Notes: generated by a model not told the origin, from the letters alone. Shown: positions 19,771 to 36,116, numbered from the stretch's first letter. The stretch: 64,000 nt of DNA from Allocoleopsis franciscana PCC 7113 (GCF_000317515.1 NC_019738.1:6164001-6228000); one strand, 5' to 3'. Program-made: numbers and translations.

Positions 19771-20120
19771 GTCTGTATCTCTGGAGTTAGATCTGCTTAT
19801 GCAGTTGTTGGCTGCAACAAGAGCGATCGCACCTCATAAAAATTTCGATTTTGTGTTAGGTATTCTGTCTGCCTATATCTCTGAAGTCAGTGTTCCTTAT
19901 GCAGGTGCTGATCAAAAAAACCGCGATCGCATGACATAAACCTTCACTGTCCTAGCAAGTTCTCCGTCTGTGTATATCTCTACAGCCATTGCTACTTATG
20001 CAGTTGTTTGCTAAGAAAATGGCGCTCAATCACAATACACACTCAAAGTTTGAAAACTCCTTGGTAGATGTTGCTGTCTAGATGTATCTCTTGAGTTACT
20101 ACCTCTTATGCAGTTAGTAA
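19771..20120 (-). repeat. Four-copy ~100-bp repeat array, each copy with a bipartite TGCATAA-N14-AGAGATA element
   Basis: Read toward the RTX gene (minus strand), each copy has CTGCATAAG, 13 bases, then AGAGATA. On the plus strand TATCTCT starts at 19776, 19876, 19975 and 20085, and TTATGCA starts at 19797, 19897, 19996 and 20106. The internal spacing is identical in all four copies while the copies themselves lie 100, 99 and 110 bp apart. The surrounding sequence is diverged but related: CAGAC or TAGAC follows each AGAGATA, and the middle two copies share a HIP1 site. The nearest copy ends 106 bp from the RTX start codon. Confidence 0.85.
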
Positions 20121-20550
20121 GGAAGACGAGTGAACACCACCTAGTTCTCTCGTTTAAATTCAAGCCTTTGTTTTAACTACTCCAACTTGATGGTTGCCAA
20201 AGACGCCAATGCCCTTGACGCTAACCCTCCTAGAATTCGGTTAGTCCACCACGCTTGATCGATGAAGGGTTTCACTCCAAATACTCGCTATTGGTATCAA
20301 GCCCCACCTCCTTGTCAACAACCGCTGTGCAGTTACACGGTTGCTGAGAATACACTTGCTGCTTGACTCACTTATCTAAGGAGCCGCTCAGCGATGGGGA
20401 TTAGATAGGCAAATAGGGATAAGCATGATGGTAACATGTGTCAACAGCACTTCTGTAGCACTTCTGTTATTATTCTCCCACTTTTTCATCGTTTTCACTC
20501 AATTCGTTTAAGTTTATTTACCTAGTCCGACTCTTCCAGAACCATCGCCG
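20121..20550. other. Gene-free stretch without recognisable content
   Basis: No convincing ORF or RNA was found here. A short direct repeat AGCACTTCTGT occurs twice near 20447-20470. The minus strand at about 20210-20290 has a short open stretch without a family I recognise; it may be gene debris. Confidence 0.5.
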
Positions 20551-20704
20551 ATGAACATCGAACAGACCAAAACTCCTGAACTCAGGATTGTGGAGCCTAA
20601 AGTGTTGGCGGACAATTGCGGGAACCATTTTCGAGGTAGCCCTAGACATCCGCCAAATATTCCCGACTTTCAGTCCATGGGTAGTTTACACTGAACGGAT
20701 GTGA
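20551..20704 (+). pseudogene. rfbC: rfbC (dTDP-4-dehydrorhamnose 3,5-epimerase) remnant, internally deleted and frameshifted
   Basis: The ATG at 20551 opens MNIEQTKTPELRIVEPKVLADNCGNHF, which matches the RfbC N-terminus (MNv..T.i..vlilEPkVfgDeRGfF). The match then shifts by one frame: from about 20630 the sequence reads FEVALDIRQIFPTFSPWV VYTERM, which matches the RfbC segment FDVAVDIRxxSPTFGxWV about 50 residues further on. The catalytic His region (QDNHSxSxxxVLRGLHYQ) and the whole C-terminal half are missing. In the first frame the ORF stops at 20694 after 47 codons; in the second frame the stop is at 20702-20704. The GT2 gene starts at GTG 20701, overlapping this stop. Confidence 0.75.
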
Positions 20705-21558
20705 TTTACTTCTTGACCGTCAATTACTATTCAACTCGCCTGATTGCTCGATTAATCGACTCAATTCCAGCAACTCAAACCATTCCTCATCAAATTGTTG
20801 TTGTTAATAACTCCGCTAATGATCAGGAGCTTAAAGACCTTTACACCGAATCCCTGCAAATTTTAGACGCCCAAACCAATCTGGGCTTTGGCAAAGCCTG
20901 CAATCTGGGACTGAACTGGATCTACGAGCGAAATCCCAATGCTATTGTCTGGATGATCAATCCTGATACTTATCTGCCAGAAAACACTTTAAAAAAAGTT
21001 TCTCCTTTCTTTAACGCCCATCCAGAACTCTCGATTGTTGGTACCCTGATCTACACGCCTGCTGCTGAGCTCTGGTTCGCTGGAGGTCAATTTATCCCTA
21101 AGTTGGGTGCTATCCTCTCCACTGATCTACTTTCCTCTCATCCCGATACTGCCTATGTCTTTTGTGACTGGGTGAGTGGATGTAGTCTTTTAATTAATCT
21201 GCGTCACTTTCCGGAATGCCCTCAGTTTGATCCAGCTTATTTTCTCTACTACGAAGACTTTGACTTTTGTCGTCGCTACGCCATGCAGGGGCATCAGATT
21301 GCAGTTACCAGTCAGTTTGCTGTCGTTCACGAAGCCTCTGCAATCGCCAATCGAAATATGACTAAAAAATTAAAGCACAGCACCTATAGCTATTTGCTCA
21401 CGCTAGAACGATATACCAACAAAGCCATTTTTATCCTGCGTTTTCTCCGACTCACCCTTTACAGCTTTATCCTGCTATTGCTAAAACCTCAAACCGCTCT
21501 TGGTAAACTGGCTGGCATATCCAGCTATTTATTTGAAAAGTTTAGTAATGATCAATGA
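20701..21558 (+). CDS. Family 2 glycosyltransferase (rhamnosyltransferase-like)
   Basis: The 285-residue GT-A enzyme has FLTVNYYSTRLIARLIDSI, IVVVNNSANDQEL, NLGFGKACNLGL, IVWMINPDTYLPENTL (metal-binding PDT), VSGCSLLINLRHF and YFLYYEDFDFCRRYAMQG. This set of motifs is typical of dTDP-rhamnosyltransferases such as WbbL. The GTG start overlaps the stop of the broken rfbC, which suggests it was once translationally coupled to a complete rfbC. The end abuts the next glycosyltransferase (10 bp). Confidence 0.88.
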   Translation: MIYFLTVNYYSTRLIARLIDSIPATQTIPHQIVVVNNSANDQELKDLYTESLQILDAQTNLGFGKACNLGLNWIYERNPNAIVWMINPDTYLPENTLKKVSPFFNAHPELSIVGTLIYTPAAELWFAGGQFIPKLGAILSTDLLSSHPDTAYVFCDWVSGCSLLINLRHFPECPQFDPAYFLYYEDFDFCRRYAMQGHQIAVTSQFAVVHEASAIANRNMTKKLKHSTYSYLLTLERYTNKAIFILRFLRLTLYSFILLLLKPQTALGKLAGISSYLFEKFSNDQ

Positions 21559-21568
21559 TGAATGACCA

Positions 21569-22777
21569 ATGACCGATGATCAAACTTTAGTTAATCTATC
21601 TGTTCTATTTTCCAAACCCACTGGTATCAGCACCTATGCCATCAATCTGTTGCCTCATTTACAACAGCTAAATCCTACACTACTAATTTCGCCAACTGTC
21701 TCAACTTGGATGCCTCTAAGTGACTATACCTGCTACTCAATTCCTGGCAACTTAACACCAGAACAAGGAACAAAAGGCCACTTTCGCCGCCTCTTATGGA
21801 CTCAGCTACAGTTGCCGCGAATTTATAACACGTTACGCTCGCGTCTTCTCTTTTCCCCCATCCCCGAAGCCCCACTCTACACTAACTGCCGTTACGTGGT
21901 GATGGTTCACGACTTGATTCCCCTGCGATTTCCCCGACGCTTCTCACCCCTAACACCCTACTTCCGCTATTACATTCCCCAAGTTCTTGCCCAAGCTCAA
22001 CATATTATCTGCAACTCCACTGCTACAGCTAGAGATATTACCGACTTTTTCCATATCCCCTCTGCAAAAATCACACCCATTCCCCTGGCTTACGACGCCA
22101 ACCATTTTCGCTGTTTGGAGCGACTCAGTGAAGTAACTTCTCCTTTACCCCCTCAACCCCCCTTCCTAACAGGGGAGTACAAGGAAAAGCGTTTATCCTT
22201 GGATTCTTCCAATGAGCCGAGGGAGGGAGAAGCTTCAAGGAATCGCCCTTACTTTCTCTACATCGGTCGGCACGACCCTTATAAGAATTTACATCGATTG
22301 ATAGATGCCTTTGCAGCCCTTCCTAATTGCCATGACTATGAACTTTGGCTTGTAGGCTCAACGGATCAACGCTACACGCCCAAACTTGGAGATCAAGCCG
22401 ACCAACTCGGTTTAACCCATCAGGTGAAATTCCTGGACTACCTTCCTTACAACCAACTACCAACCATCATCAACCAAGCGATCGCACTTGTCTTCCCCAC
22501 TCTCTGGGAAGGCTTTGGACTCCCTGTTCTAGAAGCCATGGCTTGCGGCACCCCTGTTATTACCTCTAACCTCTCCTCCCTACCCGAAGTGGCGGGTAAT
22601 GCAGCCCTCGTCATCAATCCCTACAACGCGGGTGAAATCACTGAAGCCATGCAAGCCATAGCAACGGATTCAGAATTGCGATCGCGCCTACGTGCCCTGA
22701 GTCTCAACCGCGCCAGCCAATTTAGCTGGGCAAAAACAGGACAAGCCACTGTCGAAGTTCTTCAACGCTACCTATAA
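21569..22777 (+). CDS. GT4 glycosyltransferase (mannosyltransferase-like) with repeat-derived insertion
   Basis: The 402-residue GT-B enzyme starts with VLFSKPTGISTYAINLLPHL. The donor-site half has YFLYIGRHDPYKNLHRLIDAF, VKFLDYLPYNQLPTIINQAIALVFPTLWEGFGLPVLEAMACGTPVITSNLSSLPEVAG, the E-x7-E signature of GT4. Between the two halves, about 35 residues (SPLPPQPPFLTGEY...NEPREGEASRN, DNA about 22140-22240) are encoded by a C-rich dispersed repeat that normally lies between genes; related enzymes usually have a short linker there. The frame is kept, so the protein is probably still active. Confidence 0.88.
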   Translation: MTDDQTLVNLSVLFSKPTGISTYAINLLPHLQQLNPTLLISPTVSTWMPLSDYTCYSIPGNLTPEQGTKGHFRRLLWTQLQLPRIYNTLRSRLLFSPIPEAPLYTNCRYVVMVHDLIPLRFPRRFSPLTPYFRYYIPQVLAQAQHIICNSTATARDITDFFHIPSAKITPIPLAYDANHFRCLERLSEVTSPLPPQPPFLTGEYKEKRLSLDSSNEPREGEASRNRPYFLYIGRHDPYKNLHRLIDAFAALPNCHDYELWLVGSTDQRYTPKLGDQADQLGLTHQVKFLDYLPYNQLPTIINQAIALVFPTLWEGFGLPVLEAMACGTPVITSNLSSLPEVAGNAALVINPYNAGEITEAMQAIATDSELRSRLRALSLNRASQFSWAKTGQATVEVLQRYL

Positions 22778-22917
22778 CAAATAGAAATATAGAAAATTCT
22801 TTCTAAAAATTCTTAAGATGAGTCAGAATACCAGTTGCCAGTGATTGGTGATCTCTGACTAAGATGAGAGGAAATCAAAAATCCGCTGATTACTAACAGA
22901 AAATCCAGCAGAAAACC

Positions 22918-23889
22918 GTGCCCAAAAAAGCTTTAATCACCGGATTAACAGGTCAAGACGGTTCCTACCTAGCCGAACTCCTCCTATCCAAAGGTTACCA
23001 AGTCTATGGATTAGTCCGCCGTTCCAGTTCCGGCAACATCAGCCGCATCAGTCACCTATCGGGCAACGTCCAAATTCTCTCGGGCGATCTTCTCGATCAA
23101 TGTTCCCTCATGGACGCGATCGCCGCCTCCCAACCCGACGAAATCTATAACCTCGCCTCCCAAAGCTACGTTCCCCTTTCCTGGACACAACCCTCCCTCA
23201 CCGCCGAATACACCGCCCTCGGAGTCTCCCGTTTGCTAGAGTCCATCCGCCGCTGCAAAAGTGACGCCAAATTTTACCAAGCCTCCAGTAGTGAAGTCTT
23301 CGGTCAGCCCGATGAATCCCCTCAAACTGAACGCACCGCCTTTCGTCCCCGCAACCCCTACGGCGTTGCTAAAGCCTACGCCCACTGGATGACCATTAAC
23401 TATCGGCAACAGTACAATCTTTACGCCTGCTGCGGCATCACCTACACCCACGAATCTCCCCGACGCGGTGCAGAATTCGTCTTTCGCAAAATCACTCGCG
23501 CTGCTGCCATGATCAAACTCGGTCTTGCCCAAGAATTAAAACTGGGTAACCTGGATGCACGTCGCGACTGGTGCTATGCCCAGGATGCTGTTTATGCCAT
23601 GTGGATGATGTTGCAACACGAGCAACCCGATGACTACATCATTGCTAGCGGTGAAACCCACTCCGTCAGAGAGTTAGTCGAGTGTGCTTTTAACTGTGTT
23701 GGTCTAAACTGGCAAGATTATGTTTCCGTAGACCCAGCCTTTTACCGACCGGATGAACCCGTACAGTTAGTCGGCTGCATCGATAAAATCCAAACTCAGC
23801 TAGGCTGGAAGCCCCATTCCACCTTTAACCGTCTGGTTGAACTCATGGTCGATTATGACCTGAAAGAACTCAGTAACAGCAAAGCTTAA
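22918..23889 (+). CDS. gmd: GDP-mannose 4,6-dehydratase
   Basis: The 323-residue enzyme converts GDP-D-mannose to GDP-4-keto-6-deoxy-D-mannose, the precursor of GDP-fucose, GDP-rhamnose or GDP-perosamine. The NADP-binding motif GLTGQDGSYLAELLL is at residue 8. The catalytic region is SSSEVFGQPDESPQTERTAFRPRNPYGVAKAYAHWM with YxxxK, and the cofactor-fixing R-x-SSSGNISRI loop is present. The start is GTG. The usual partner reductase or epimerase (fcl/wcaG or rmd) is not in the window, so the final sugar cannot be told. Confidence 0.93.
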   Translation: MPKKALITGLTGQDGSYLAELLLSKGYQVYGLVRRSSSGNISRISHLSGNVQILSGDLLDQCSLMDAIAASQPDEIYNLASQSYVPLSWTQPSLTAEYTALGVSRLLESIRRCKSDAKFYQASSSEVFGQPDESPQTERTAFRPRNPYGVAKAYAHWMTINYRQQYNLYACCGITYTHESPRRGAEFVFRKITRAAAMIKLGLAQELKLGNLDARRDWCYAQDAVYAMWMMLQHEQPDDYIIASGETHSVRELVECAFNCVGLNWQDYVSVDPAFYRPDEPVQLVGCIDKIQTQLGWKPHSTFNRLVELMVDYDLKELSNSKA

Positions 23890-24281
23890 GTTTTGTTTTC
23901 TAAGCTGATGACTATCCACAGAGGATAAGTTCTTATTTCCTGAGTGCGGCTCACAACCTTAGGGTGATCTATGTAGTTTCTTTCTAAAGTGATAGCCACC
24001 CTACACTAGGTATATGATAATTTTGTGAAAATTTGCCCAATCCTGAGGGTGTGACCAGCCTGTCAGGCAGACACAACTGTAACGGGAGGTATATTCCAAA
24101 CTTCAACATGGATTCGAGTGTTCGCAACCAACTCAAATATAAGATAGGTTAGTTTCCTGCAAAAATTTTGCCAGGTTGGTGAGATTTGGCATAACGATAG
24201 AGAACATAAAAGACAACCTTCTCCAAAACCAACTACTTTTATTAGCTCACGCGAACTAGCATTTTATTGAGACATAGACCG
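23890..24281. other. Gene-free stretch before the winged-helix regulator gene
   Basis: No ORF of note is present. Two inverted repeats are visible: TAGGGTG at 23960-23966 pairs with CACCCTA at 23997-24003, and CCTGCAAAA / TTTTGCCAGG lies near 24156-24175. Neither is followed by a T-run, so neither is a clear terminator. It probably contains the promoter of the regulator downstream. Confidence 0.5.
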
Positions 24282-25031
24282 ATGTATAAATGGGGGGATT
24301 TACGCTTAGAGCCAGAAGCTTGTGAAGTCAGCTACCAAGGACAAACCCTGCGATTGTATCCCAAAGAGTATGAACTTTTGAAGCTATTCTTTGATTACCC
24401 GAAACGGGTATTAAGTCCATCTTTTATCATTGATCGTCTTTGGTCTTTTGATACAATTCCCAGCGAAAGTGCCGTAAGAACTCATATTAAAGGACTGCGA
24501 CGTAAACTCAAAGATGCAGGGGCAGAAGATGTCATTCAGACCGTTCATAGTTTGGGTTATCGTTTGAAGCCGCTGCCGAAAGAGACCCAGAAATCGGATT
24601 CTTCATTGAGTCCCATGTTGATAAAGCTATTAGCATTACATGAAATTGAACATATTATCGTTGATAAGAATTTTATTATTTTGGAGGCTTCTCCAGATGT
24701 AAAAAAATTCTCTGATTATCCGTGGGATGTGGAAATTGGTCGAGAAGTAACTTTAGCATTTCCTGAATTAATTGGGCTTGAATCTACTCTATTGGAAATT
24801 TTAGAAAACCAAAAACCCAGCTTTGATATTAAAGGAATTGCTCGGTCAAAAAATTCTCTAAGACCAGACTACATCAATATTTATGCCATGAGCGAACCCA
24901 CAGAAAACCAATCCAACCAAAGATTACTTCTTTTGTTTGAAGACTCTTCGGAAAAAATGATTTGGAAACAGCAGGTTGTTCAACAAGAAAACGAATCTTA
25001 TTTACTGATTGGAGAACCCTTTAAAAATTAA
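24282..25031 (+). CDS. Winged-helix DNA-binding regulator with C-terminal PAS-like domain
   Basis: The protein has 249 residues from ATG 24282; an in-frame TTG at 24267 is less likely. Residues 1-95 form an OmpR/PhoB-type winged helix ([32 protein letters not shown]... [18 protein letters not shown]... [13 protein letters not shown]). There is no N-terminal receiver domain. The C-terminal 140 residues ([48 protein letters not shown]...) look like a PAS-type sensor. The DNA-binding domain therefore precedes the sensor, which is the reverse of normal response regulators. The target is unknown. Confidence 0.75.
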
Positions 25032-25240
25032 ACTGCATTCATCCCTCATCCCTAAGTGGAGCAGCAGCTAATCGCATAGGAGAACGAATTCCAGAAGTGG
25101 GGCTGTTGACTTTCCATCCTTTATTCGGTCTTCTCGCCCCTGAAGCGATAAAGTTTGCGGCAACGGCTAGCTACAATGAGAGCGTACCGACACAAAACTT
25201 GTGTCTGGTTTTTTGTTCTGCTTGCTCAAGGAATGCGGTT

Positions 25241-26635
25241 ATGGCTCTGCCAATTGTTGCTGTGATAGGACGCCCGAATGTGGGCAAATCAACCCTGGTC
25301 AATCGTTTGGCAGGCGTAACCGATGCGATTGTCCATGATGAACCTGGGGTAACGCGCGATCGCACGTATCGCCCCGGCTTCTGGCAAGATCGCGAGTTCC
25401 TGGTTGTCGATACAGGTGGCTTAGTCTTTGATGATGACACCGAATTCTTGCCCCTGATCCGAGAACAGGCCATGGCGGCGCTGGCTGAATCGAGTGCAGC
25501 CATATTCGTCGTGGATGGTCAGGAGGGGCCGACACCGGCAGATGAAACGATCGCGGAATGGTTACGCCAACAATCCGTGCCTTTTTTCCTTGCCGTGAAC
25601 AAATGCGAATCGCCACAGCAGGGCATTATCCAATCCTCTCAGTTTTGGGAATTAGGATTAGGCGAACCGTTCCCTGTCTCCGGGATTCATGGCAATGGTC
25701 TTGGAGAACTGCTCGATGAGCTAATTACTCACCTGGAACCGGTAGAAATCCCGTCAGAAACCTCTGAGATTAAAGTTGCCATTGTTGGACGCCCCAATGT
25801 AGGCAAGTCCAGCTTATTGAACGCCTTTACTGGGGAAAATCGTGCGATCGTTAGTCCTATTTCTGGCACTACCCGCGATGCGATTGATATGGTCGTAGAA
25901 CGACCGGGTAAGGCAGAAAAGGAGGGTGAAAGCAAAACCTATCGCCTGATTGATACGGCGGGAATTCGTAAGAAGAAGAATGTGGATTACGGCCCGGAAT
26001 TCTTTGGTATTAATCGGGCGTTTAAAGCGATTCGCCGCTCCGATGTGGTGTTAATGGTCATTGACGCCCTGGATGGAGTAACCGAGCAAGACCAAAAACT
26101 AGCAGGGCGAATTGCCGAAGAAGGACGTGCGGCTGTGATTGTGGTGAACAAATGGGATGCCGTTGAAAAAGATTCCCACACGATCTATGAACAGGAAAAA
26201 CTGGTTAAAGACCGCCTGAGTTTTGTCGATTGGGCCGAGATCATTTTTGTCAGTGCTCAGACCGGACAACGGGTGGAAAAGATTTTGGATTTAGTCGATA
26301 CCGCCGCTGAGGGACATCGTCGTCGTGTGACCACTTCGGTAATTAACGAAGTGCTAGAAGAAGCCGTAAGCTGGCACTCTCCCCCCACCTCTCGCCAAGG
26401 GCGGCAGGGCAAAATTTACTATGGTACTCAGGTCGCCAGTCAGCCACCCACGATTGCTCTGTTTGTCAACGAGCCTAAGCGCTTTAACGATAACTACCGC
26501 CGCTATATCGAGCGTCAGTTTCGTCAACATTTGGGCTTTACTGGGACACCAATCCGCTTGCTGTGGCGGGGTAAGAAAGCCCGTGAGGTTGGGAACAATA
26601 TCCAGAGCAATGCCAACCGAGCCACACGGGTATAG
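25241..26635 (+). CDS. der: GTPase Der (EngA), 50S ribosome assembly
   Basis: The protein has 464 residues when started at ATG 25241 ([17 protein letters not shown]); upstream in-frame GTG codons would add about 48 residues not seen in the family. It has two G domains: [14 protein letters not shown] at residue 9 with DTGG and NKCE, and [14 protein letters not shown] near residue 184 with DTAGI and NKWD. A C-terminal KH-like domain ends in [11 protein letters not shown]. It is essential for large ribosomal subunit maturation. The CbiQ/EcfT gene starts 6 bp downstream, so the two are probably co-transcribed. Confidence 0.96.
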
Positions 26636-26641
26636 AGACAA

Positions 26642-27628
26642 ATGGATTTACTGCGATCGCTACCCCTGGGGCTGTACCTGGAACAACCCGTTACCTGGCT
26701 CCATCACCTAGACTCTAGGGTGAAGTTTATCTGGCTGATGAGCTTTCTCGTGGCTCCTCTGTTAGCCAATCCCTACTGGCGTGTAGCGCTGGTGGCGTTG
26801 TTAATTTTGCTTACCCTCTCGGCAGCGATTCCGTTACGTGTGTGGCGTCAGCAAATGGGTTGGCTACTGATGTTGTCGTTTTTTGTGCTGATTGTAACCG
26901 CGATCGCCCCTGATGGTTATTCTATTGACAGTCAGCCACGGCTACCCACCTATACTCAGCAACCCGCCAACCTTCCTATCGAAGTCCCTCAGCCTAGACC
27001 CTGGTATAACCCTTTTGGTTTTGGAGAACAGCCTTCCCCTAGCACACCCGCTACAAAACCACCGAAGCCCTTACCACAGCCAACTCGTTATCGTTATGTA
27101 CTCTGGAAGGCTGGCCCTTTTACCGTAACTCGCCGCTCTTTAGACCTGGCAATTCGTGTCAGTACACTACTTTTTACTGTAATCTACAGCAGTACCCTGT
27201 TCCTGCTCACGACTGCACCGGAAGAAATTACGGCGGGTTTAGAAAGCTTGATGCGACCTTTGCGGCGGATGGGGGTACCCGTGACGGAAATTACCTTGAC
27301 ATTAACCCTCTCTTTGCGCTTTATTCCCTTGGTGTTGGAAGAAGTGCAAAATTTGGTTCGTTCTGTGTATACCCGTGCCATCAATTGGAAAAAATTGGGC
27401 ATCCGTAAAAGTTTTCAAGTGTGGTTACTGGTGGCAGAACGACTGCTGGAAAATCTTTTATTACGAGCTGAGCAAATTGCCAGTGCCATGCTGGTGCGGG
27501 GATTTACTAGTCCCAATGAGCATCGGGTACAGTGGCACCAACTACGCCTACGGTGGGGGGATTGGTTGGCGCTGCTGAGTTTACTTGTGTTCTGGGGATT
27601 ACGGGTGGTTTGGGGTGGAGCGATTTAG
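26642..27628 (+). CDS. CbiQ/EcfT-family energy-coupling transporter transmembrane protein
   Basis: The 328-residue protein starts with the CbiQ signature LHHLDSRVKFIWLMSFLVAPLL. Further family motifs are LLFTVIYSSTLFLLTTAPEEITAGLESLMRPLRRMGVPVTEITLTLTLSLRFIPLVLEEVQNLVRSVYTRAINW and a second coupling helix with SAMLVRGF. A Pro-rich insertion of about 55 residues (roughly 100-155) separates the N-terminal helices from the rest. Its ATPase and substrate-binding subunits are not nearby, as is usual for a shared EcfT module. In cyanobacteria this gene often follows der. Confidence 0.88.
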   Translation: MDLLRSLPLGLYLEQPVTWLHHLDSRVKFIWLMSFLVAPLLANPYWRVALVALLILLTLSAAIPLRVWRQQMGWLLMLSFFVLIVTAIAPDGYSIDSQPRLPTYTQQPANLPIEVPQPRPWYNPFGFGEQPSPSTPATKPPKPLPQPTRYRYVLWKAGPFTVTRRSLDLAIRVSTLLFTVIYSSTLFLLTTAPEEITAGLESLMRPLRRMGVPVTEITLTLTLSLRFIPLVLEEVQNLVRSVYTRAINWKKLGIRKSFQVWLLVAERLLENLLLRAEQIASAMLVRGFTSPNEHRVQWHQLRLRWGDWLALLSLLVFWGLRVVWGGAI

Positions 27629-28032
27629 TGAGTTGAAAACCTCACAAGTCTTTCATCCAGCAACCACATCACTGCTCACTGGCAAACGTCTGAACTTTAG
27701 CTTTTTGAGGGAAAGCACAGGCTATCCCTAGGATTACAATAGAAGTAAAAGTGGTTGTTAGGTAGGTAATTGAGAGCATGGCTATAAGAGTGATACGAAT
27801 GGTTGTAAAAATAAAATAATTTGTACGAGATAATTTTGTAGTTAGTATTTAGATAATACCCAGTTGCATAGATGGTTAGTTTTCTAACTTAAATTCGGGC
27901 GTCTGAACTGTTTAGCCATACCTATTACTAGGGTTATTATTAGGATTAAAAGCACATAAAAATATCCTGCTCAATCCACGTCACGTATTATCGCCATTTG
28001 TAGAAGATTATTGTCGCCCAAATGCTACGCCC
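27629..28032. other. Gene-free AT-rich stretch between convergent genes
   Basis: No ORF, RNA or clear terminator was recognised. It separates the EcfT gene from the three-gene exported-protein operon on the other strand. Confidence 0.5.
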
Positions 28033-28401
28033 CTACTGCCCCTTGGATTGTAACGTATTGAAGTCTACTTCTGTTATGCTCGAATCAGAAACACCAATAA
28101 AATCTAACAGAAAATTTGAATTCCTAGAATTGTGGGATTCACAAGAGATGTGGTGATATATTACGTAGGCTTTACCGTTACTGCATTTAACCGTTACAGT
28201 TCCTTCTCCATATTCACTTCCTGTGTAAATGACTTTCGGACACTTCTTGAGATTCTCTTTTAATATTAGCTCTGCACGTTCTTGATCAAAGTTTTTGGCA
28301 AAATTTATGCCAGTCGCCCTCTCTAAAGCTAAAAACGTTAGGACAATAATAACTACTCCTAAACCAAAAACTTTAGAGACTCGTGCAATCGTCTTATTCA
28401 T
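28033..28401 (-). CDS. Small membrane-anchored hypothetical protein
   Basis: The 122-residue protein has one N-terminal hydrophobic segment (residues about 10-28, VFGLGVVIIVLTFLALERA) and then a soluble part with three cysteines (CPKV, VKCSN, ISCES). No family is recognised. It is third in a likely operon with the two exported proteins upstream (gaps of 43 and 35 bp), so it probably depends on the bipartite promoter element at 30413-30440. Confidence 0.65.
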   Translation of the reverse strand: MNKTIARVSKVFGLGVVIIVLTFLALERATGINFAKNFDQERAELILKENLKKCPKVIYTGSEYGEGTVTVKCSNGKAYVIYHHISCESHNSRNSNFLLDFIGVSDSSITEVDFNTLQSKGQ

Positions 28402-28444
28402 GATGTTTACCTAGATAATTTTTCGTAATTTTCTCACACCCAAG

Positions 28445-29782
28445 CTATTCCGCCGCAGCACCTAGAAAAATTTGATTAACAATACTATCTTGAAACGAGA
28501 ATATTAGACCTCCATAAATCGAACCAGCTATGAAAGATTCATAGGGAATAGACATTTCCCGATCTTCCTCATCTTTATACGCTTGCATTACCTCAGTGTA
28601 AGAGTCGCCAATCCTTATCCCACGCTGAGTTTTAAGTGTTGAAGGTGAAGTTAGCGTAATATTAAAAACTGTCTGTCTTTCTCCTGGTGTTTCTGAAGCC
28701 ATGTTTAAAGTAATTCCTTGTTGAGGATAGTACCAGTCTTGATGATAAAGTCCGTCCGCTCCCCATCGCACAATCTCGCCTTTCGTTTCTGGAATTCCCA
28801 AGATTTCTAAGACTTGTGAGGCTGTCAAATCGAGTTTTAATTCTCCAAAGCCTTCTGATTGCATCAACTCAAAAGGATTAGCAGCTTCAGAAGTGGAGTC
28901 GGCAATTTCAGTTATTTGAACGATGGACGTTTTAGAGTCAGCCTCCCTGGTAATTGAAGGAGGCAAACTTGTTAGACCTCTTGCAAAAATACCTGGCGAT
29001 TGATAATCGCGCGTCCAAAAACGAAGTCTGCCTACGCGGACTGTCCTAAAACCCGCGCAGGCGGGTGAGGTTTGTATAGCCTCAGACTTCAGTCTGTAGG
29101 CGTCCATCGACTTTTGCAAAAGGTCTGTTGTTGAAATGCTCAAGTTGTCGGCTTGAGCCGTTGGTGATTGAGTGGCTGTGGAATTCCTTTGCTCTAAGGC
29201 TTCATTGGATGCTTCGGCAATACAGCTTGCTGCATTAAATTGTTCAATTACGCGATCGCTTTCATCCCAATCCCTCCAGTATGCACGGGTTGGCACTTTA
29301 GCCGGTGCAATCAAACGATAAGCCTCAACGCCTGCTTCGTTCGTAGGATTGTTGTTGTTCCATGCAGATGCCAAATAATTTCCCTGCCGAAAAGTGACTC
29401 CACTGCCATCATAAATTCGCTGATTCAAAACATTGCCTAACGCAAAGCTAACTACTTGTGCAGTATCGTCTGTGTAAATAATACAGACCTGACCCTCTGT
29501 TGTTGAAGGATAAATGTCCATTGTTTGTTCCCATCCTGCCCATGTTCCCAAAAAAGGAGCTACCGTTGGATCGCGGCGTGACCAATTTTCTGCAAACGCC
29601 TTGGCTTCGCTCTGACGTTGAGGTTCCTCATATTGATTCCAATAGTCAACTTGACGCTGAAAGTCAGGCATCAATTTTTGGAGTTCTTCATCGGTTAGAT
29701 GTGAGTGAGTTTGTGCATAAGCAAAATGAGGACTTATTCCAAAGGCGATCGCGAGTGCAATGCAACTGAGATGTTTCTTCAT
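28445..29782 (-). CDS. Exported hypothetical protein carrying an in-frame MITE insertion
   Basis: The 445-residue protein begins with a clear signal peptide (MKKHLSCIALAIAFGISPHFAYAQ). The mature part has no domain I can name; the C-terminal part (MQSEGFGELKLDLTASQVLEILGIPETKGEIVRWGADGLYHQDWYYPQQGI...) looks like a conserved cyanobacterial unit. Residues about 220-270 (TDLLQKSMDAYRLKSE...CAGFRTVRVGRLRFW...GIFARGLTS) come from a 153-bp element with terminal inverted repeats. Because 153 is 51 codons the frame is kept, and the protein has gained a foreign loop between its two halves. Confidence 0.75.
   Translation of the reverse strand: MKKHLSCIALAIAFGISPHFAYAQTHSHLTDEELQKLMPDFQRQVDYWNQYEEPQRQSEAKAFAENWSRRDPTVAPFLGTWAGWEQTMDIYPSTTEGQVCIIYTDDTAQVVSFALGNVLNQRIYDGSGVTFRQGNYLASAWNNNNPTNEAGVEAYRLIAPAKVPTRAYWRDWDESDRVIEQFNAASCIAEASNEALEQRNSTATQSPTAQADNLSISTTDLLQKSMDAYRLKSEAIQTSPACAGFRTVRVGRLRFWTRDYQSPGIFARGLTSLPPSITREADSKTSIVQITEIADSTSEAANPFELMQSEGFGELKLDLTASQVLEILGIPETKGEIVRWGADGLYHQDWYYPQQGITLNMASETPGERQTVFNITLTSPSTLKTQRGIRIGDSYTEVMQAYKDEEDREMSIPYESFIAGSIYGGLIFSFQDSIVNQIFLGAAAE
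28974..29126. mobile_element. 153-bp MITE-like element inside a coding sequence
   Basis: The left end reads AGACCTCTTGCAAAA (28974 on) and the right end TTTTGCAAAAGGTCT (to 29126), which are imperfect terminal inverted repeats. GTT flanks both sides (28971-28973 and 29127-29129), a possible 3-bp target duplication. The interior holds GAAGTCTGCCTACGCGGACT, ACCCGCGCAGGCGGGT and CAGACTTCAGTCTG, palindromes common in cyanobacterial dispersed repeats. It encodes no protein of its own; it is read through by the host gene. Confidence 0.8.
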
Positions 29783-29817
29783 TTATCTTTGACTCTGCTC
29801 AATAAAGTTGTACTCGT

Positions 29818-30375
29818 TTAATAATTCTTCCACTGAATAGACTGGTAAATTTGGTTGAGTAAAATTTGGTTGTTACGCGAAAATTGAGTAAAATCTGATG
29901 CCCAGCTTAGATTGGCTGATGTTGTATCATGAATAATTGCCCAATATTGACCATTTGGGTGATTAATCGCAACAATATGGTTTCCCACTAAAGCCTTGCT
30001 TCCGTTAATTGAGACTTCTTCATAAGGTTCTTGGCCTAAGTCATTCAAAAAAGCTTTTATATCGCCACTAAAGAGTTCGATTAAAACATAGTTAGCTCCC
30101 ATTAAAGCTTCTGATTCAGAACTCTGTAAGTAACAGTATGCAGTAGGCTCCAGAATATAAATTTTTTTCCATACTCCACCCTCTGTTTGACTTTTCGGCA
30201 CTGCTCGATAATTACTGGCTACTTCAAACACTAAACCTGATTGGTCATCACGAATCGTTTTTAAGGTTTGAGCCGGAGTACTGTCTTCCTGCTCACAGGG
30301 ATAGGCTATTGATTCAGTCAGGAGAATGGAAAAAGCGGTTAAAGTGACGATTGTTACAAGAGTTTTTAGCTTCAT
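29818..30375 (-). CDS. Exported hypothetical protein
   Basis: The 185-residue protein has an N-terminal signal peptide (MKLKTLVTIVTLTAFSILLTESIAYPCE). The mature part is globular with two cysteines (CEQ, YCYLQ) and alternating beta-rich segments; no family is recognised. It is the first gene of a likely three-gene operon. The bipartite element TGCATAA-N14-GGTGATG ends 38 bp upstream of its start codon. Confidence 0.65.
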   Translation of the reverse strand: MKLKTLVTIVTLTAFSILLTESIAYPCEQEDSTPAQTLKTIRDDQSGLVFEVASNYRAVPKSQTEGGVWKKIYILEPTAYCYLQSSESEALMGANYVLIELFSGDIKAFLNDLGQEPYEEVSINGSKALVGNHIVAINHPNGQYWAIIHDTTSANLSWASDFTQFSRNNQILLNQIYQSIQWKNY

Positions 30376-30412
30376 TGCTAGAGACCTTTACTTACTAATT
30401 AGATATATTTCC

Positions 30413-30440
30413 CATCACCTGTAGCTTTAACAGTTATGCA
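30413..30440 (-). promoter_or_regulatory. Bipartite element upstream of the exported-protein operon
   Basis: Read toward the gene (minus strand): TGCATAA, 14 bases, GGTGATG. Plus-strand positions are TTATGCA 30434-30440 and CATCACC 30413-30419. The spacer shares AGCTTTAA (plus strand) with the element at 32118, so these two are close relatives. Confidence 0.65.
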
Positions 30441-30508
30441 AGAAGTAGCTTGGGCGATCGCAATTTGTTTAATAGCGTTTGTGCCTAATCATTCCAGTTC
30501 GATTAAGC

Positions 30509-31231
30509 TTAGTGTACCCACGGTTCCTTCTCAAAATCGCAAACCGTTCGACGAGCAGAAAGTGGGCAAGTTTGCTCTGCGAGCGGATTGCCTGTAAGGT
30601 TAAGCAACCTCAAATTGGTAAGTTCTGCTAGAGGACTGATATCTGTGATTTGGTTGTAGCTGAGGTAAAGCACCCACAAATTTGTGAGTCTTGCTAGAGG
30701 GCTGACATCTGTAATTTGGTTGTTGTTGAGGCGAAGATCCTTCAGATTTATGAGTCTTGCTAGAGGGCTGACATCTGTGATTTTATTGCCGTGGAGGTCA
30801 AGCTCGGTCAGGTTTGTGAGTCCTGCCAGAGGCGTTACATCTGCAATTGGATTTTGGCTGAGGAAAAGCTTCTCCAGATTTGTGAGTCTTGCTAAAGGGC
30901 TGACATCTGTAATTTCGTTGAGGGTTAGGAATAGCTCCTTCAGATTTGTGAGTCCCGCCAGAGGTCTGAGATCTGTAATTGGGGCTTCCGGGAGGGAAAG
31001 CTCAGTACGACTTGACAGATCCTTGGCAGCGAGTTCACAATCGCTTGTGCCTGCTTCTTCTAACAGCACTTCTACTGTTTTTCTGGCCTCGGCTGACAAA
31101 CTGGTTCGCTTTTGACACCACTCTTTAAAAGAACTTCCTAGACTAGGTTCGGCAGCTTGAGTAACTCCCCATCCCCAGCTACTGAACACCCATAAGCTGA
31201 ACGTCAGAACAATTGCGCTAGTCAGTTTCAT
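30509..31231 (-). CDS. Exported internalin-like leucine-rich repeat protein
   Basis: The protein has 240 residues from the ATG at 31231, chosen because GGAGGA lies just upstream; an in-frame ATG six codons earlier would precede that site. A signal peptide (MKLTSAIVLTFSLWVFSSWGWGVTQAAE) is followed by a Cys-containing cap (EWCQKRTSLS...TSDCELAAKDL) and about six or seven 22-residue LRRs of the form LTNLxxLxLxxNxITDVSPLAR. The end is a small Cys-rich cap (TCPLSARRTVCDF). LRRs of this type bind proteins. It is a tandem paralogue of the next gene, which lies upstream on the same strand. Confidence 0.88.
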   Translation of the reverse strand: MKLTSAIVLTFSLWVFSSWGWGVTQAAEPSLGSSFKEWCQKRTSLSAEARKTVEVLLEEAGTSDCELAAKDLSSRTELSLPEAPITDLRPLAGLTNLKELFLTLNEITDVSPLARLTNLEKLFLSQNPIADVTPLAGLTNLTELDLHGNKITDVSPLARLINLKDLRLNNNQITDVSPLARLTNLWVLYLSYNQITDISPLAELTNLRLLNLTGNPLAEQTCPLSARRTVCDFEKEPWVH

Positions 31232-31302
31232 AGTTGATAAATCCTCCATAGGTAGTCTCTAGATTTTTCGGGAAATTTCAGCTCAACTGTCTCAGCAAGT
31301 TC

Positions 31303-32067
31303 TTAAAACTGGCAAACATTTCGGTCAGTAATGGGGCAAGTTCGCTGTGTGATTGGATTGCCTGGAACGTAAAGCGAATCCAGGTTTGCGAGTCCCGCTA
31401 GAGGAGTGATATCTGTGATTTGGTTATTGTCGAGGTTAAGTACCTTCAGGTTTTTGAGTCCCCCTAGAGGCGTTATATCTGTGATTTGGTTGCCACTGAG
31501 GTGAAGCGCCTCCAGGTTTTTGAGTCCTGCTAGAGGAGTGAGATCTGCAATTTGGTTGTACATGAGTTGAAGCGTCTTCAAGTTTGCAAGTCCCGCTAGA
31601 GGATTAATATCTTTGATTTGGTTACTTTCTAAATAAAGCACCTCCAGTTTTGTCAGTCCTGCCAGAGGTGTTAAATCTGTGATTTGGCTGCCTGCAAGGG
31701 TAAGATCTTTCAGATTTGTAAGTCTTGCTAGAGGCGTTACATCTGTGATTTGGTTGCTATCTAGGATAAGCACCTCCAGATTTGTGAACCCTGCCAGAGG
31801 GGTTAAATCTGTGATTTGCCGACTTATCAGGTACATTTCCGTACCACTAGACAGATTTTTTGCAGCGAGTTCACAATCGCTTGTGCCTGCTTCTTCTAAC
31901 AGCACCTCTACTGTTTTTTGACGCTGGGCTGACAAACTTGCTTTCTTTTGACACCATTCTTCAAAAGAACTCCCTTGACTAGGTTCGGCAGCTTGAGTAA
32001 CTCCCCATCCCCAGCTACTGAACACCCACATACCAAGTATCAGAGCCACTGCACTAGTCGATTTCAT
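31303..32067 (-). CDS. Exported internalin-like leucine-rich repeat protein (paralogue)
   Basis: The 254-residue protein has the same plan as its neighbour: signal peptide MKSTSAVALILGMWVFSSWGWGVTQAAE, cap EWCQKKASLSAQ...TSDCELAAKNL, about seven 22-residue LRRs (ITDLTPLAGLTNLEVLxLxxNQ), and C-terminal TCPITDRNVCQF. The signal peptides and caps are nearly identical while the LRR surfaces differ, so the pair arose by tandem duplication with diversification of the binding face. It is first in the two-gene unit; the bipartite element ends 51 bp upstream of the start. Confidence 0.9.
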   Translation of the reverse strand: MKSTSAVALILGMWVFSSWGWGVTQAAEPSQGSSFEEWCQKKASLSAQRQKTVEVLLEEAGTSDCELAAKNLSSGTEMYLISRQITDLTPLAGFTNLEVLILDSNQITDVTPLARLTNLKDLTLAGSQITDLTPLAGLTKLEVLYLESNQIKDINPLAGLANLKTLQLMYNQIADLTPLAGLKNLEALHLSGNQITDITPLGGLKNLKVLNLDNNQITDITPLAGLANLDSLYVPGNPITQRTCPITDRNVCQF

Positions 32068-32117
32068 GGTAAATGCACCCTTATCAGTAATGTCTATATC
32101 TGTGTAGATATAGTACT

Positions 32118-32145
32118 TATCACCTCTAGCTTTAAGATTTATGCA
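32118..32145 (-). promoter_or_regulatory. Bipartite element upstream of the LRR gene pair
   Basis: Read toward the LRR genes (minus strand): TGCATAA, 14 bases, GGTGATA. Plus-strand positions are TATCACC 32118-32124 and TTATGCA 32139-32145. It sits 51 bp from the start codon. The spacing equals that of all other copies in the window. Confidence 0.7.
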
Positions 32146-32257
32146 ACAACTCTCATTGCTTGACTTCAGGGAGGAATGCTGTCAAGACAGGTTAGATATG
32201 TGTAAGCTTAAGACTGATTGCTTATGGCGGCATCAATTATTTATTTCATAGTGGTTT

Positions 32258-32986
32258 ATGAATAGAAAAATTGCTCTGGGGCTTGTGGTTATTGTGATCG
32301 CCCTGATAGGAATTGGTATTGCCAATAAAGAAGTCAGGTGTTCTATCGGCCTGCAATCTGAATCTTGTCTTTCATCAACTTCATTCAATATCCCTACTAC
32401 TGGCTCTGAAGCATCGGAAGTAGGAGCCGACTACACCAAACTAGCCAATCTACTGGCAAAGCAAAGACTTAAAGCCGCTGATCGAGAAACAAGCGATAAA
32501 CTTTTTTGGCTTGCAAAAGGAAACCCTAATGAATACCTCCCCAAAGGAAATATGAAAATGATTCCCTGCAAAGACCTCCGCACAATTAACAGTTTGTGGT
32601 TAGCTTATAGTAGCGGAAAGTATGGATTTAGCGTTCAACAGAAACTCTACGAACAGATATATAAAGAGGTGAGCCGTCAACCCAAGATACTATCATATAA
32701 TGTTGAATCGGAAGTATATAATCGCTTTGCTCGTCGCGTAGATTGGACTGTCAGAGACGATGCACGATTGAATTATGACCCGCTAATTATTAATCCGCGT
32801 GGAAGAGAAGGACACCTTCCGGTAACTTACATAAAACTGGGAGTGCCAGAATCTTGTCGTTCCGATTATCCTGCATGGTTAAGCATACTCACACTTCAAT
32901 GGTGTCTTTTAGGTATGCATTGGTCAGGTGCAGCTCCTGAAGTCAGTCAAGAAGTATTCTCTCGTATCGAAAGCTGCAAGCTATAG
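32258..32986 (+). CDS. Membrane-anchored GUN4-domain protein
   Basis: The 242-residue protein has an N-terminal membrane segment (residues 5-22, IALGLVVIVIALIGIGIA) and then a GUN4 domain: DYTKLANLLAKQRLKAADRETSDKLFWLA, MIPCKDLRTINSLWLAYSSGKYGFSVQQKLYEQI, FARRVDW and EGHLPV. GUN4 binds porphyrins and activates Mg-chelatase; cyanobacteria also encode many GUN4-like domains fused to other modules with unknown roles. The porphyrin-domain core is recognisable but this is not the canonical gun4. It lies between the LRR pair and the CHAT gene. Confidence 0.85.
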   Translation: MNRKIALGLVVIVIALIGIGIANKEVRCSIGLQSESCLSSTSFNIPTTGSEASEVGADYTKLANLLAKQRLKAADRETSDKLFWLAKGNPNEYLPKGNMKMIPCKDLRTINSLWLAYSSGKYGFSVQQKLYEQIYKEVSRQPKILSYNVESEVYNRFARRVDWTVRDDARLNYDPLIINPRGREGHLPVTYIKLGVPESCRSDYPAWLSILTLQWCLLGMHWSGAAPEVSQEVFSRIESCKL

Positions 32987-33045
32987 TCACACTTGCAATC
33001 TGCCTCACTTGAATAATATTTGATTGGCAAGGGGTTGTATAGCAA

Positions 33046-33071
33046 AAGGCAGAAGGCAGAAGGCAGAAGGC
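33046..33071. repeat. GGCAGAA heptamer tandem repeat
   Basis: Three consecutive copies of GGCAGAA plus a partial one are present. It is a short tandemly repeated sequence of the kind found between cyanobacterial genes, and lies in the 274-bp gap before the CHAT gene. Confidence 0.85.
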
Positions 33072-33181
33072 TATTATGTTTTTTACTGGTACGTGGTCGT
33101 TTACAGCCGTTCAATCTGTCCTAAGCTTTATGGCGACAGCTATAACTTTAGCAGTAGCCCTAACGCGATCGCAAAACTTAT

Positions 33182-33209
33182 TGCATAAATCCTCCATTGA
33201 TGAGGGATA
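33182..33209 (+). promoter_or_regulatory. Bipartite element upstream of the TPR-CHAT gene
   Basis: TGCATAA (33182-33188), 14 bases, AGGGATA (33203-33209), then TAAAC. It ends 52 bp before the ATG of the CHAT gene. The same element with the same spacing precedes the LRR, exported-hypothetical and RTX genes, here on the opposite strand and in the correct orientation for its gene. Confidence 0.7.
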
Positions 33210-33260
33210 TAAACAGTAGAGCGAACAACCTGCTTTCCTCATTACTGGAGGACTGGATTC

Positions 33261-36116
33261 ATGCATCTGCGTCTTGGAAATCTCAACCTTGCCACTGCTA
33301 CTCTACTGCTTTCTCTAACATCTCCCCTGTTGCCACTAGGTAACATTGAGCTTTTTACCGCACCGGCACAAACAACTCAAGATAGGAAAGCTGTAGCCGA
33401 TCAACTGTTGCAAGAAGGTGAACGTCTGAATGTTAACGATAACCATGAAGAAGCACTAGCAAAATTTGAGCAAGCCTTATTGATCTATCAGGAAATAGGT
33501 GACAAGGCAGGTGTCGGGGTAACCCTCCACAACATTGGATATGTTTATTACAGCAAGCAAGAGTATCCACAATCGTTAGCTTATTTCCAGCAAGCTTTGT
33601 CCATTCAACAGGAACTTGGCAATGTTGTTTGGGAAGAAATCAACCTCAAGATGATCCGGAGAATTTACGACGATCAAGGTACTCAGCTTTTCGAGCGCAG
33701 TCAATATCGAGAAGCCCTGGAGAAGTTTCAGCAAGTCCTGGTTATTCAGAAGCAACTGCGTGAGCTAGGTAAGCCGGAATTAGAAGCAGTCACTCTCAAC
33801 AAAATTGCGTTAACTTACACCTATCTAGGAGAGTATGAACTAGCCTTGGAGTCCTATCAAAAAGCCTTAGTAGCGGACGATGAATTACGTTTTCTAGAGG
33901 ATGAATGGGTAATCTTGATCAACATGGGAGAGCTTTACCAGAAGCTAGGACAATATGAACTAGCCTTGAAGTCTTATCAAGAAGCCTTAGAACTCGCTAA
34001 AACCCCCCAAGCTGACTTGGATAGCAGTGGAAACATCGGATTGGAAGTGAGAAGTCTCAACGCGATTGGGGCGATTCACTACAGATTAGGACAATACGAA
34101 TTAGCCTTAGATTTCCATGAGAAAGCCTTGGCACTTCTCAAGACAATTGAGAAAAAAACAGACACAAAAGCCCTGGGAGCATCAACACTCAATGGTATGG
34201 GGCTTGTTTACCTTAAGATAGAAAAGCCTGAATCAGCGTTGGAGTTCTTGCAGCAGGCTTTCGCTCTGATCAAACCACTCGGTAATAAGCCATCAGAATG
34301 GGCAATTCTTAATAATATTGGAAAAGCTTACTATGAGTTAGGGAACTATGAATCAGCTTGGGATTTATATCAGCAAGCCTTGGTGATTGCTCAGGAAATT
34401 GGCAACCAGGAAGGTGTAGGACACGCTCTCAAAAATATTGGTTATTTACTAGAAAAGCAAAACCAACCCGAATTAGCCATTGTGTTCTTCAAGCAATCTG
34501 TCAATGCCAGAGAAGCACTTCGGAATAACATCAAGGGGCTTCCCTCAGAATTTCAGCAATCCTACACCGAAACTATTGCTGAAGATTATCGCCATTTAGC
34601 CGATCTTCTCCTCCAACAAAACCGCATCCTCGAAGCCCAACGAGTCCTGGATTTACTCAAAGTGCAGGAACTTGAAGACTATTTGCGCGATGTCCGAGGC
34701 AGCGATAATACGGCTCAAGGTGTTGCTGAACGCCCTCCAGAACGGCAAATTCGAGAAGGGAGCGAGGCAATTATGAATCAAGCGATCGCCCTCGGCAAAG
34801 AACTTGCCCAAATCGAAAGTATTCCCATTTCCGACAGAACGCAAACCCAAAAACAGCGTATCCTCGAACTGAGAAAAATAGAGCAGGAAATTACCCAACA
34901 GTTCAATGAATTTATAGTAAGCCCACAAGTAAAAGAATGGGTAACACAACTCAAGCAATCCACAAGAGGGCAGACTGTGGACTTGGATGCCTATGCCACA
35001 ACCTTACAAGACAACCTAAAAAAACTTCAGCAAGATGCCGTCATTCTTTATCCTTTGATACTGCCCGAGCGCTTGGAACTCGTGTTAATCACTCCTGATA
35101 CACCTCCACTACGCTATACCGTTCCTGTCAAACGAGAAGAATTCAACCAAGCCATTGTTGAATTTCGTTCAGCGTTAACAGCACCTATCCATGACGCCAA
35201 AGTTCCCGCTCGAAAGCTCTACGATTGGTTAATCAAACCCCTAGAAAATGACTTAGTTCAAGCCAAAACCAAAACCATCATCTACGCCCCTGATGGACAA
35301 CTGCGTTACATCCCACTTGCTGCCCTCCATGACGGCAATCAATGGCTAGTCCAACGCTTCCGTATTAATAATATAACTGCCGTCAGTTTGACCGAACTCA
35401 ACACTAAACCGCCGAGTCAGTTGCAAGTGTTAGCAGCGGCTTTCACTCAAGGTAACTATAGCTTTAATGTGGGCAACGAACGGTTTAACTTCTCCGGATT
35501 ACCTTATGCGGGTCGTGAAGTGGAAAGTCTGGGTCAAACCGTTCCTAATACAACCAAATTATTAGACCAGCAATTTAATCGAGATACTGTTTTGCAGATG
35601 AATGATTATTCCATTGTGCATCTAGCAACTCATGCAGCTTTTGTTGCCGGACAACCAGAAGAGTCATTTATTCTGTTTGGGAATGGCGATCGCGTAACCC
35701 TCCGAGATGTGAAAAAGTGGCGTCTGCCGAATGTAGATTTGGTTGTACTTTCAGCCTGTGAAACGGGATTAGGAGATAAGTTGGGGGACGGCAAAGAAAT
35801 TCTCGGTTTTGGTTACCAGATGCAACAAACTTCAGCTAGGGCTGCGATCGCGTCTTTGTGGAAAGTTAGTGATGGTGGTACCCAAGCCTTGATGGATGCC
35901 TTCTATGCTGCCTTGCAGAATGACAAAATGACCAAAGCCGAAGCATTGCGACAATCACAAATTGCTCTGATCACAGGCGACTATCAAGCCTTGGGTGAAC
36001 AGCGAGGACTAGGAGTAGCACAACGGATTAAGAATAATCTGCCATCACAGGTGAGCGATCGCCTCAGCCATCCCTACTACTGGGCACCCTTCATTTTGAT
36101 CGGCAACGGGTTATAG
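33261..36116 (+). CDS. Exported TPR-CHAT caspase-like protease
   Basis: The protein has 951 residues. The N-terminus looks like a signal peptide (MHLRLGNLNLATATLLLSLTSPLLPLG... APAQ). About nine TPR units follow (residues 45-430, YYSKQEYPQSLAYFQQAL-type), then a helical linker, and a CHAT domain (about 590-951) starting at QDAVILYPLILPERLELVLITP. The catalytic dyad is intact: His791 in SIVHLATHAAF and Cys833 in LVVLSACETGLG. CHAT domains are caspase/separase-like cysteine peptidases, and TPRs usually carry the sensor or partner function. An extracytoplasmic location is inferred from the signal peptide. The substrate is unknown. It carries the bipartite element upstream. Confidence 0.88.
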   Translation: MHLRLGNLNLATATLLLSLTSPLLPLGNIELFTAPAQTTQDRKAVADQLLQEGERLNVNDNHEEALAKFEQALLIYQEIGDKAGVGVTLHNIGYVYYSKQEYPQSLAYFQQALSIQQELGNVVWEEINLKMIRRIYDDQGTQLFERSQYREALEKFQQVLVIQKQLRELGKPELEAVTLNKIALTYTYLGEYELALESYQKALVADDELRFLEDEWVILINMGELYQKLGQYELALKSYQEALELAKTPQADLDSSGNIGLEVRSLNAIGAIHYRLGQYELALDFHEKALALLKTIEKKTDTKALGASTLNGMGLVYLKIEKPESALEFLQQAFALIKPLGNKPSEWAILNNIGKAYYELGNYESAWDLYQQALVIAQEIGNQEGVGHALKNIGYLLEKQNQPELAIVFFKQSVNAREALRNNIKGLPSEFQQSYTETIAEDYRHLADLLLQQNRILEAQRVLDLLKVQELEDYLRDVRGSDNTAQGVAERPPERQIREGSEAIMNQAIALGKELAQIESIPISDRTQTQKQRILELRKIEQEITQQFNEFIVSPQVKEWVTQLKQSTRGQTVDLDAYATTLQDNLKKLQQDAVILYPLILPERLELVLITPDTPPLRYTVPVKREEFNQAIVEFRSALTAPIHDAKVPARKLYDWLIKPLENDLVQAKTKTIIYAPDGQLRYIPLAALHDGNQWLVQRFRINNITAVSLTELNTKPPSQLQVLAAAFTQGNYSFNVGNERFNFSGLPYAGREVESLGQTVPNTTKLLDQQFNRDTVLQMNDYSIVHLATHAAFVAGQPEESFILFGNGDRVTLRDVKKWRLPNVDLVVLSACETGLGDKLGDGKEILGFGYQMQQTSARAAIASLWKVSDGGTQALMDAFYAALQNDKMTKAEALRQSQIALITGDYQALGEQRGLGVAQRIKNNLPSQVSDRLSHPYYWAPFILIGNGL

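Follow-up and report, generated by a model that had tools for sequence, protein, structure and literature searches.

A conserved, promoter-like bipartite element upstream of genes for exported caspase-like proteases and surface proteins in cyanobacteria

We identified a bipartite element, TGCATAA-N14-RGNGATA, that recurs in the genome of a filamentous cyanobacterium, lies close upstream of the genes toward which it points, and is retained in a sister species and in more distant relatives. The reading that we favour, with a probability of roughly 0.68, is that the element serves as core promoter for an alternative-sigma regulon, most likely read by a group-3 sigma factor, which switches on a set of exported and surface proteins.

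The element in the window and across the genome

Within the window, by which we mean the whole 64-kb stretch of DNA that was analysed, a pattern scan returned six exact matches (Table 1), against 0.004 expected under an order-1 Markov model (P for six or more ~5e-18). The initial annotation had reported seven copies with a 14-bp spacer, directed toward their genes and too many for chance. All seven are found where it placed them and point toward the named genes, and the excess over chance is borne out, but only six are exact; the seventh, before the three-gene unit, has one mismatch, ending in GATG rather than GATA, and scores weakly in the sequence model (HMM E 0.059). The spacer of this copy is similar to that of the copy before the leucine-rich repeat (LRR) gene, of which it may be a degenerate duplicate.

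The element is not confined to the window. The 7.97-Mb genome (G000) holds 35 exact copies, 29 of them scattered beyond the window, against 0.49 expected under an order-1 Markov model, and a reversed-pattern control gave none. When the spacer was varied from N4 to N24, 35 copies were found at N14, 12 at N13 and zero to three at every other length; the only over-represented spacers are thus 13 and 14 bp, i.e., GCATAA-N16/N17-GATAWR. A 46-column sequence model recovered 36 genomic sites with E<0.01. The element is genuine and its abundance greatly exceeds chance, and the genome-wide scan proposed in the initial annotation found it upstream of genes, not at random positions.

Aligned copies fall into two classes. 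The class A consensus reads TTGCATAARTGGCA...RGNGATAAGTACTAcaG, followed by further weak downstream conservation, and contains ATAAGT in both halves, 22 bp (two helical turns) apart. The class B consensus reads TGCATAAG...AGAGATATA and is without the second ATAAGT. In the window, the LRR copy belongs to class A and the RTX and TPR-CHAT copies belong to class B.

Table 1. Element copies, window genes and genome-wide targets in G000, with related loci; distances run from the end of the element to the start codon
Feature	Position or locus	Strand	Distance (bp)	Evidence or sequence
Element copy 4, farthest from RTX gene	20085..20112	-		Exact match; TGCATAAGAGGTAGTAACTCAAGAGATA
Element copy 3, 5' of RTX gene	19975..20002	-		Exact match; TGCATAAGTAGCAATGGCTGTAGAGATA
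Element copy 2, 5' of RTX gene	19876..19903	-		Exact match; TGCATAAGGAACACTGACTTCAGAGATA
Element copy 1, closest to RTX gene	19776..19803	-	105	Exact match
Single element with one mismatch, before three-gene unit	30413..30440	-	37	TGCATAA-N14-AGGTGATG
Single element before LRR gene	32118..32145	-	50	Exact match, then AGTACTATA
Single element before TPR-CHAT gene	33182..33209	+	51	Exact match; AGGGATATAA
RTX (HemolysinCabind) protein, 531 aa, predicted target	18075..19670	-		Pfam PF00353, E 1.6e-63
Three-gene unit, gene 1, predicted target	29818..30375	-		
Three-gene unit, remaining genes	28445-29782 and 28033-28401			
LRR protein with signal peptide, predicted target	31303..32067	-		Pfam LRR_4, E 2.5e-61
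Second LRR gene, downstream of the first	30509-31249			
Exported TPR-CHAT (caspase-like protease) protein, 951 aa, predicted target	33261..36116	+		Pfam CHAT PF12770, E 2.5e-65
GUN4-domain protein	32258-32986			
Exported TPR-CHAT or TPR proteins	L013, L020, L023, L029 (the window gene), L076, L081, L091			
C14 caspase with Tat-like leader	L086			
CHAT and CHAT-CHASE2 proteins	L009, L082			
S8 subtilase	L012			
Serpin	L022			
RTX proteins	L017, plus the window RTX gene			
LRR protein	L028 (window)			
GHL10	L034			
DUF928	L001			
Pilin-GH-like proteins	L016, L083			
PilB-family ATPase	L002		266	
Rhomboid	L011			
AAA_35	L008, L075			L075 assigned by similarity to L008
Ser/Thr kinase	L018			
LuxR-type response regulator	L033			Pfam GerE
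Glycosyltransferases	L030, L035			
ABC-type ATPase	L079			
TnpB	L005			
Sigma-like/DUF1822/CHAT operon	L031:5053-10028			
Inverted repeats around class A copies	L034:4921-5061	-		
Inverted repeats around class A copy in sister species	L121:1425-1560	-		

Targets and conservation

Most copies in G000 have a nearby open reading frame in the correct orientation, the assignment of reading frames being mechanical. The targets include several exported TPR-CHAT proteins and a range of other proteases, surface proteins and regulators (Table 1). The notion of a shared, directional, promoter-like element that co-regulates a set including the RTX, LRR and TPR-CHAT genes is supported by these data. That all four units encode exported proteins, as was also suggested, is loosely true in the window, although no signal peptide is obvious in the RTX protein; the claim breaks down genome-wide, where the targets also comprise a response regulator, Ser/Thr kinases, AAA_35 proteins, glycosyltransferases and TnpB. 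A Pfam search matched none of the three proteins of the three-gene unit. A crude hydrophobicity test classed 38 of the 66 class B targets from other genomes (~58%) as signal-peptide/TM-like, compared with 18 of 47 window genes (38%). The GUN4-domain gene of the window, whose product has a hydrophobic N-terminus, is divergent from the LRR gene and flanked by two element copies. In G000, a class A element stands ~100 bp upstream of a TnpB gene, and this element with similar flanks can also be seen in the sister species (L005 and L109).

At least 20-22 of the 35 sites recur unchanged at the orthologous place in the sister species (G001), whereas the flanks of the kept sites share 74-78% identity with those in G000. 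Around 12 fixed positions would survive such divergence by chance at no more than a few per cent of sites; since the G001 loci were picked by pattern, the evidence is the proportion kept, not the per-column identity within the boxes. The persistence of exact sites within such diverged flanks argues for selection on the element. The RTX gene of G001 has two tandem copies, 109 bp apart (L124), and in Symploca sp. SIO2C1 (L163) the element precedes an apparent LRR ortholog in the same arrangement as in the window.

Of 243 genomes scanned in the order, 21 carry the class B form TGCATAAS-N12/13-AGAGATA, at up to 29 copies per genome, against ~4 matches in total for the reversed control across the same genomes, and class B copies are the majority order-wide. 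They end 32-60 bp from the start codon in about half of 66 starts; a random site would be expected within 350 bp upstream of a same-strand gene in 4.6% of cases. Copies in apparently Nostocaceae-like and other distant families end ~35-55 bp before exported TPR-CHAT genes and caspases. TPR domains occur in 24 and CHAT domains in at least 12 of the 66 class B targets, many of the proteins being partial in the retrieved stretches. Caspases, S8 subtilase, DUF928, CHAT-CHASE2, AAA_35-like and RTX-like proteins recur among these targets, as do ABC-exporter genes and the same ABC ATPase as in G000, and the functions overall match those in G000.

When 84,980 species genomes were scanned for class A, matches came from Coleofasciculus, Symplocastrum, Symploca, Moorena, Nostoc, Desmonostoc, Atlanticothrix and Cylindrospermum, together with 14 scattered non-cyanobacterial matches, a number of the order expected by chance. 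Judged by these kin and by its gene content, G000 is probably close to Coleofasciculus/Symplocastrum. In a scan of the phylum, small-genome families (probably picocyanobacteria) were near the control level, and one genome (G225) carried five identical TGCATAATATAAAAAAATATAGAGATA copies that look like a dispersed repeat rather than a regulon. Class A elements in seven species of Nostoc/Desmonostoc stand before a gene whose product is a small HTH protein (FQRKLLLVNLEKSLPESYQQRIEIMLLADEGKTQTQICQILGCC...; L135, L150, L151, L154, L176, L178, L179), a candidate transcription factor in the regulon. In Nostoc UCD121, Desmonostoc, N. flagelliforme and Atlanticothrix, a single contig can hold several genes that have a class A element in front (L137, L139, L144, L156, L171, L173-L175, L185); these resemble genes of polyketide/peptide synthesis, including acyl-AMP ligase, carrier-protein synthase and thioesterase.

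Promoter architecture and competing readings

The two boxes stand at a nearly fixed separation of 16 or 17 bp, within the 16-18 bp usual for alternative-sigma promoters, and the copies are oriented toward the gene starts that they closely precede, with a modal distance of 32-60 bp. We propose that (T)GCATAA would act as the -35 box and GATAWR, inside RGNGATAWR, as the -10 box, with a spacer of 16 or 17 bp. RNA polymerase would be guided to the element by a sigma factor other than the housekeeping one, most likely by either of the two group-3 (SigF/SigJ-like) sigmas of the genome, and initiation would take place ~10 nt after GATA, giving a 5' UTR of usually ~25-50 nt; for the TPR-CHAT copy, +1 is predicted at ~33218-33219. 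The genes that would be switched on jointly encode TPR-CHAT and caspase proteases, subtilase, serpin, RTX, LRR, DUF928 and pilin-like proteins, and some regulators and exporters. Alternative-sigma promoters generally initiate about 7 nt beyond the -10 box; column profiles of the element show weak T-A conservation 9-10 nt after GATA, at the position expected for +1, and no TATAAT at a fixed offset downstream of the element. A sigma-70 (SigA) promoter, TTGACA-N17-TATAAT, found no match on the same strand upstream of the four window units.

The initial annotation had left open whether the element is a sigma promoter or a dimeric operator. In the latter case, a dimeric transcription factor such as a response regulator would bind the two halves as half-sites and activate a promoter just downstream. 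Class A copies, with ATAAGT in both halves and conserved sequence on either side of the boxes, are compatible with such binding, and a LuxR-type response regulator (L033), whose site is kept in G001 (L120), is among the targets and could be autoregulated. However, the ATAAGT direct repeat is confined to class A, so that response-regulator half-sites are not present in all members; class B, with its AGAGATATA end, lacks the second half-site. The spacer varies between 13 and 14 bp, which is promoter-like, and start codons as close as 32-45 bp leave little room for a separate promoter. Given the 16/17-bp spacing, the start-codon distance, the faint signal at +1 and the fact that no separate -10 box is seen, we favour the sigma promoter and consider an operator unlikely, though less so for class A. 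The additional conserved sequence of class A (AGTACTAcaG...) exceeds what a bare sigma promoter needs, and an additional regulator may act at these copies.

Less probable still is a promoter read by an ECF-type sigma, or by the divergent sigma-like protein of the sigma-DUF1822-CHAT operon (L031). This operon itself carries a perfect class A copy, which is identical in G000 and G001, and its sigma-like product resembles sigma-70 (TIGR02937, E 9e-10) at a score short of the curated cut-off. According to Kaur et al. 2021 (PMC8195603), the operon type combining ECF sigma, DUF1822 and caspase may control many genes. Relatives of the L031 protein, however, occur in three copies in a genome without the element (G021) and were not found in three genomes that bear it (G006, G007 and G008), and none except the G001 ortholog has an element copy upstream. 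The sigma-like protein was rejected as master regulator since its relatives are not co-distributed with the element; it is a target, not a demonstrated regulator. The -10 boxes of ECF sigmas are usually not GATA-like, which further counts against this explanation. With a CHAT protease encoded beside a sigma-like protein, the L031 operon (CHAT-Peripla_BP, DUF1822 and the divergent sigma-70-like protein) may be compared with type III-E CRISPR, which has TPR-CHAT and a sigma factor.

A conserved RNA leader (riboswitch-like) or a dispersed repeat/MITE before the genes is highly improbable. In its favour, conserved sequence continues downstream of class A copies, long outer inverted repeats enclose some of them, and one compensatory change was seen (L034/L121). 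Against it, RNAalifold predicted no pairs, Rfam gave no match, 37 of 300 shuffled sets reached the observed arm complementarity within loci, class B has no extension and the flanks of copies within the genome are unrelated, so that a structured RNA is largely refuted. The inverted repeats lie ~70 bp apart and bracket some class A copies (L034 and L121, Table 1; also L131, L113 and L035); the arms that differ by the compensatory change read CATGAGAC...GTCTCATG in G000 and CATTAGAC...GTCTAATG in G001, and the whole set fails the shuffle test.

Returning to the sigma promoter, our best guess for its cognate is a group-3 (SigF/SigJ-like) sigma. GATA-type -10 boxes are typical of group-3 sigmas, e.g., sigma28 (PMC8325347, PMC2859248), the distance between the boxes is that of the SigF promoter as read at pilA of G000, and the genome encodes two group-3 sigmas (L071 and L072); we therefore propose a group-3-type promoter. 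No element copy lies upstream of L071, L072 or other sigma genes of G000, and thus no autoregulation was seen. The phylogenetic profile of the L071-type sigma does not discriminate for or against it as the cognate. Its presence among 53 genomes does not track the element: it is absent from G280, whose element precedes TPR-CHAT, and present in many genomes without the element. Most genomes have both group-3 types, whether or not they carry the element.

Comparison with known systems and biological meaning

The cyanobacterial SigF (type 3) promoter, as described for pilA1, reads TAGGC (-32) / GGTAA (-12) (PMC2758279). The element shares with it a start-to-start box distance of 20 nt (TAAR to GATAA), equal to that of TAGGC-N15-GGTAA at the pilA gene of G000 itself, a -10 box ending in TAA, surface-related targets and, if our proposal for the element holds, a group-3 sigma. 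Column profiles differ, however, with TGCATAA and RGNGATA in place of TAGGC and GGTAA with an AG-rich spacer, and the element as a SigF core is ruled out by sequence. The known SigF target pilA keeps the SigF core almost unchanged in G000 and is without the element; its promoter (L223, reverse strand) is near-textbook, with TAGG, an AG-rich spacer and GGTAAGTTACA.

The SigJ J-Box of Nostoc punctiforme, suggested for comparison in the initial annotation, reads GGGaAtacT with a weak -35 (PMC6495340). Both motifs have an extended -10-like box in which purines are followed by A-TA, and the J-Box likewise serves a many-promoter regulon in filamentous cyanobacteria, but the match does not hold at the sequence level: the J-Box needs GGG and has a weak -35, whereas the -35-like half of the element is invariant and its -10 half reads AGAGATA or GGNGATAAG. 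At the main pilB gene of G000, neither the J-Box nor the element motif is clear. The flagellar/WhiG sigma28 promoter (TAAA / GCCGATAA; PMC8325347, PMC2859248) has a similar GATA(A/T) -10 core and a TAA-containing -35 box, but its spacing is 2-3 bp longer, the element adds an invariant TGCA, and cyanobacteria are without flagella. EACC2-caspase/DUF1822/ECF-sigma conflict systems have been described as gene neighbourhoods (Kaur et al. 2021, PMC8195603). One such operon is among our targets, and many targets are CHAT/caspase, AAA/STAND-like or TPR proteins; the portion of that account available gives neighbourhoods without a shared promoter or regulon.

The open-access papers searched yielded no report of the element or of TTGCATAA in cyanobacteria, nor of a shared promoter or regulator for cyanobacterial TPR-CHAT/caspase (CHAT/orthocaspase) genes; in Nostoc punctiforme, the search for a consensus of the SigC and SigF regulons was reported to have been negative (PMC6495340). 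Our findings suggest an undescribed co-regulated gene set, consisting most often of exported CHAT and other proteases and cell-surface proteins. More tentatively, this could be a dedicated regulon of filamentous cyanobacteria, an extracellular protease programme read by a sigma factor with a new promoter specificity. Its conserved core would be secreted or surface TPR-CHAT proteins and a Tat-exported C14 caspase, with subtilase, serpin, surface binders and conflict-type AAA proteins, and it might serve in filament-filament interaction, predation defence or cell death.

The unexpected part of these results is the conserved link between a promoter-like element and exported caspase-like proteases. 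A shared promoter would add a promoter specificity to cyanobacterial sigma biology, and would give a first handle on when multicellular cyanobacteria produce their exported TPR-CHAT and caspase-like proteins.
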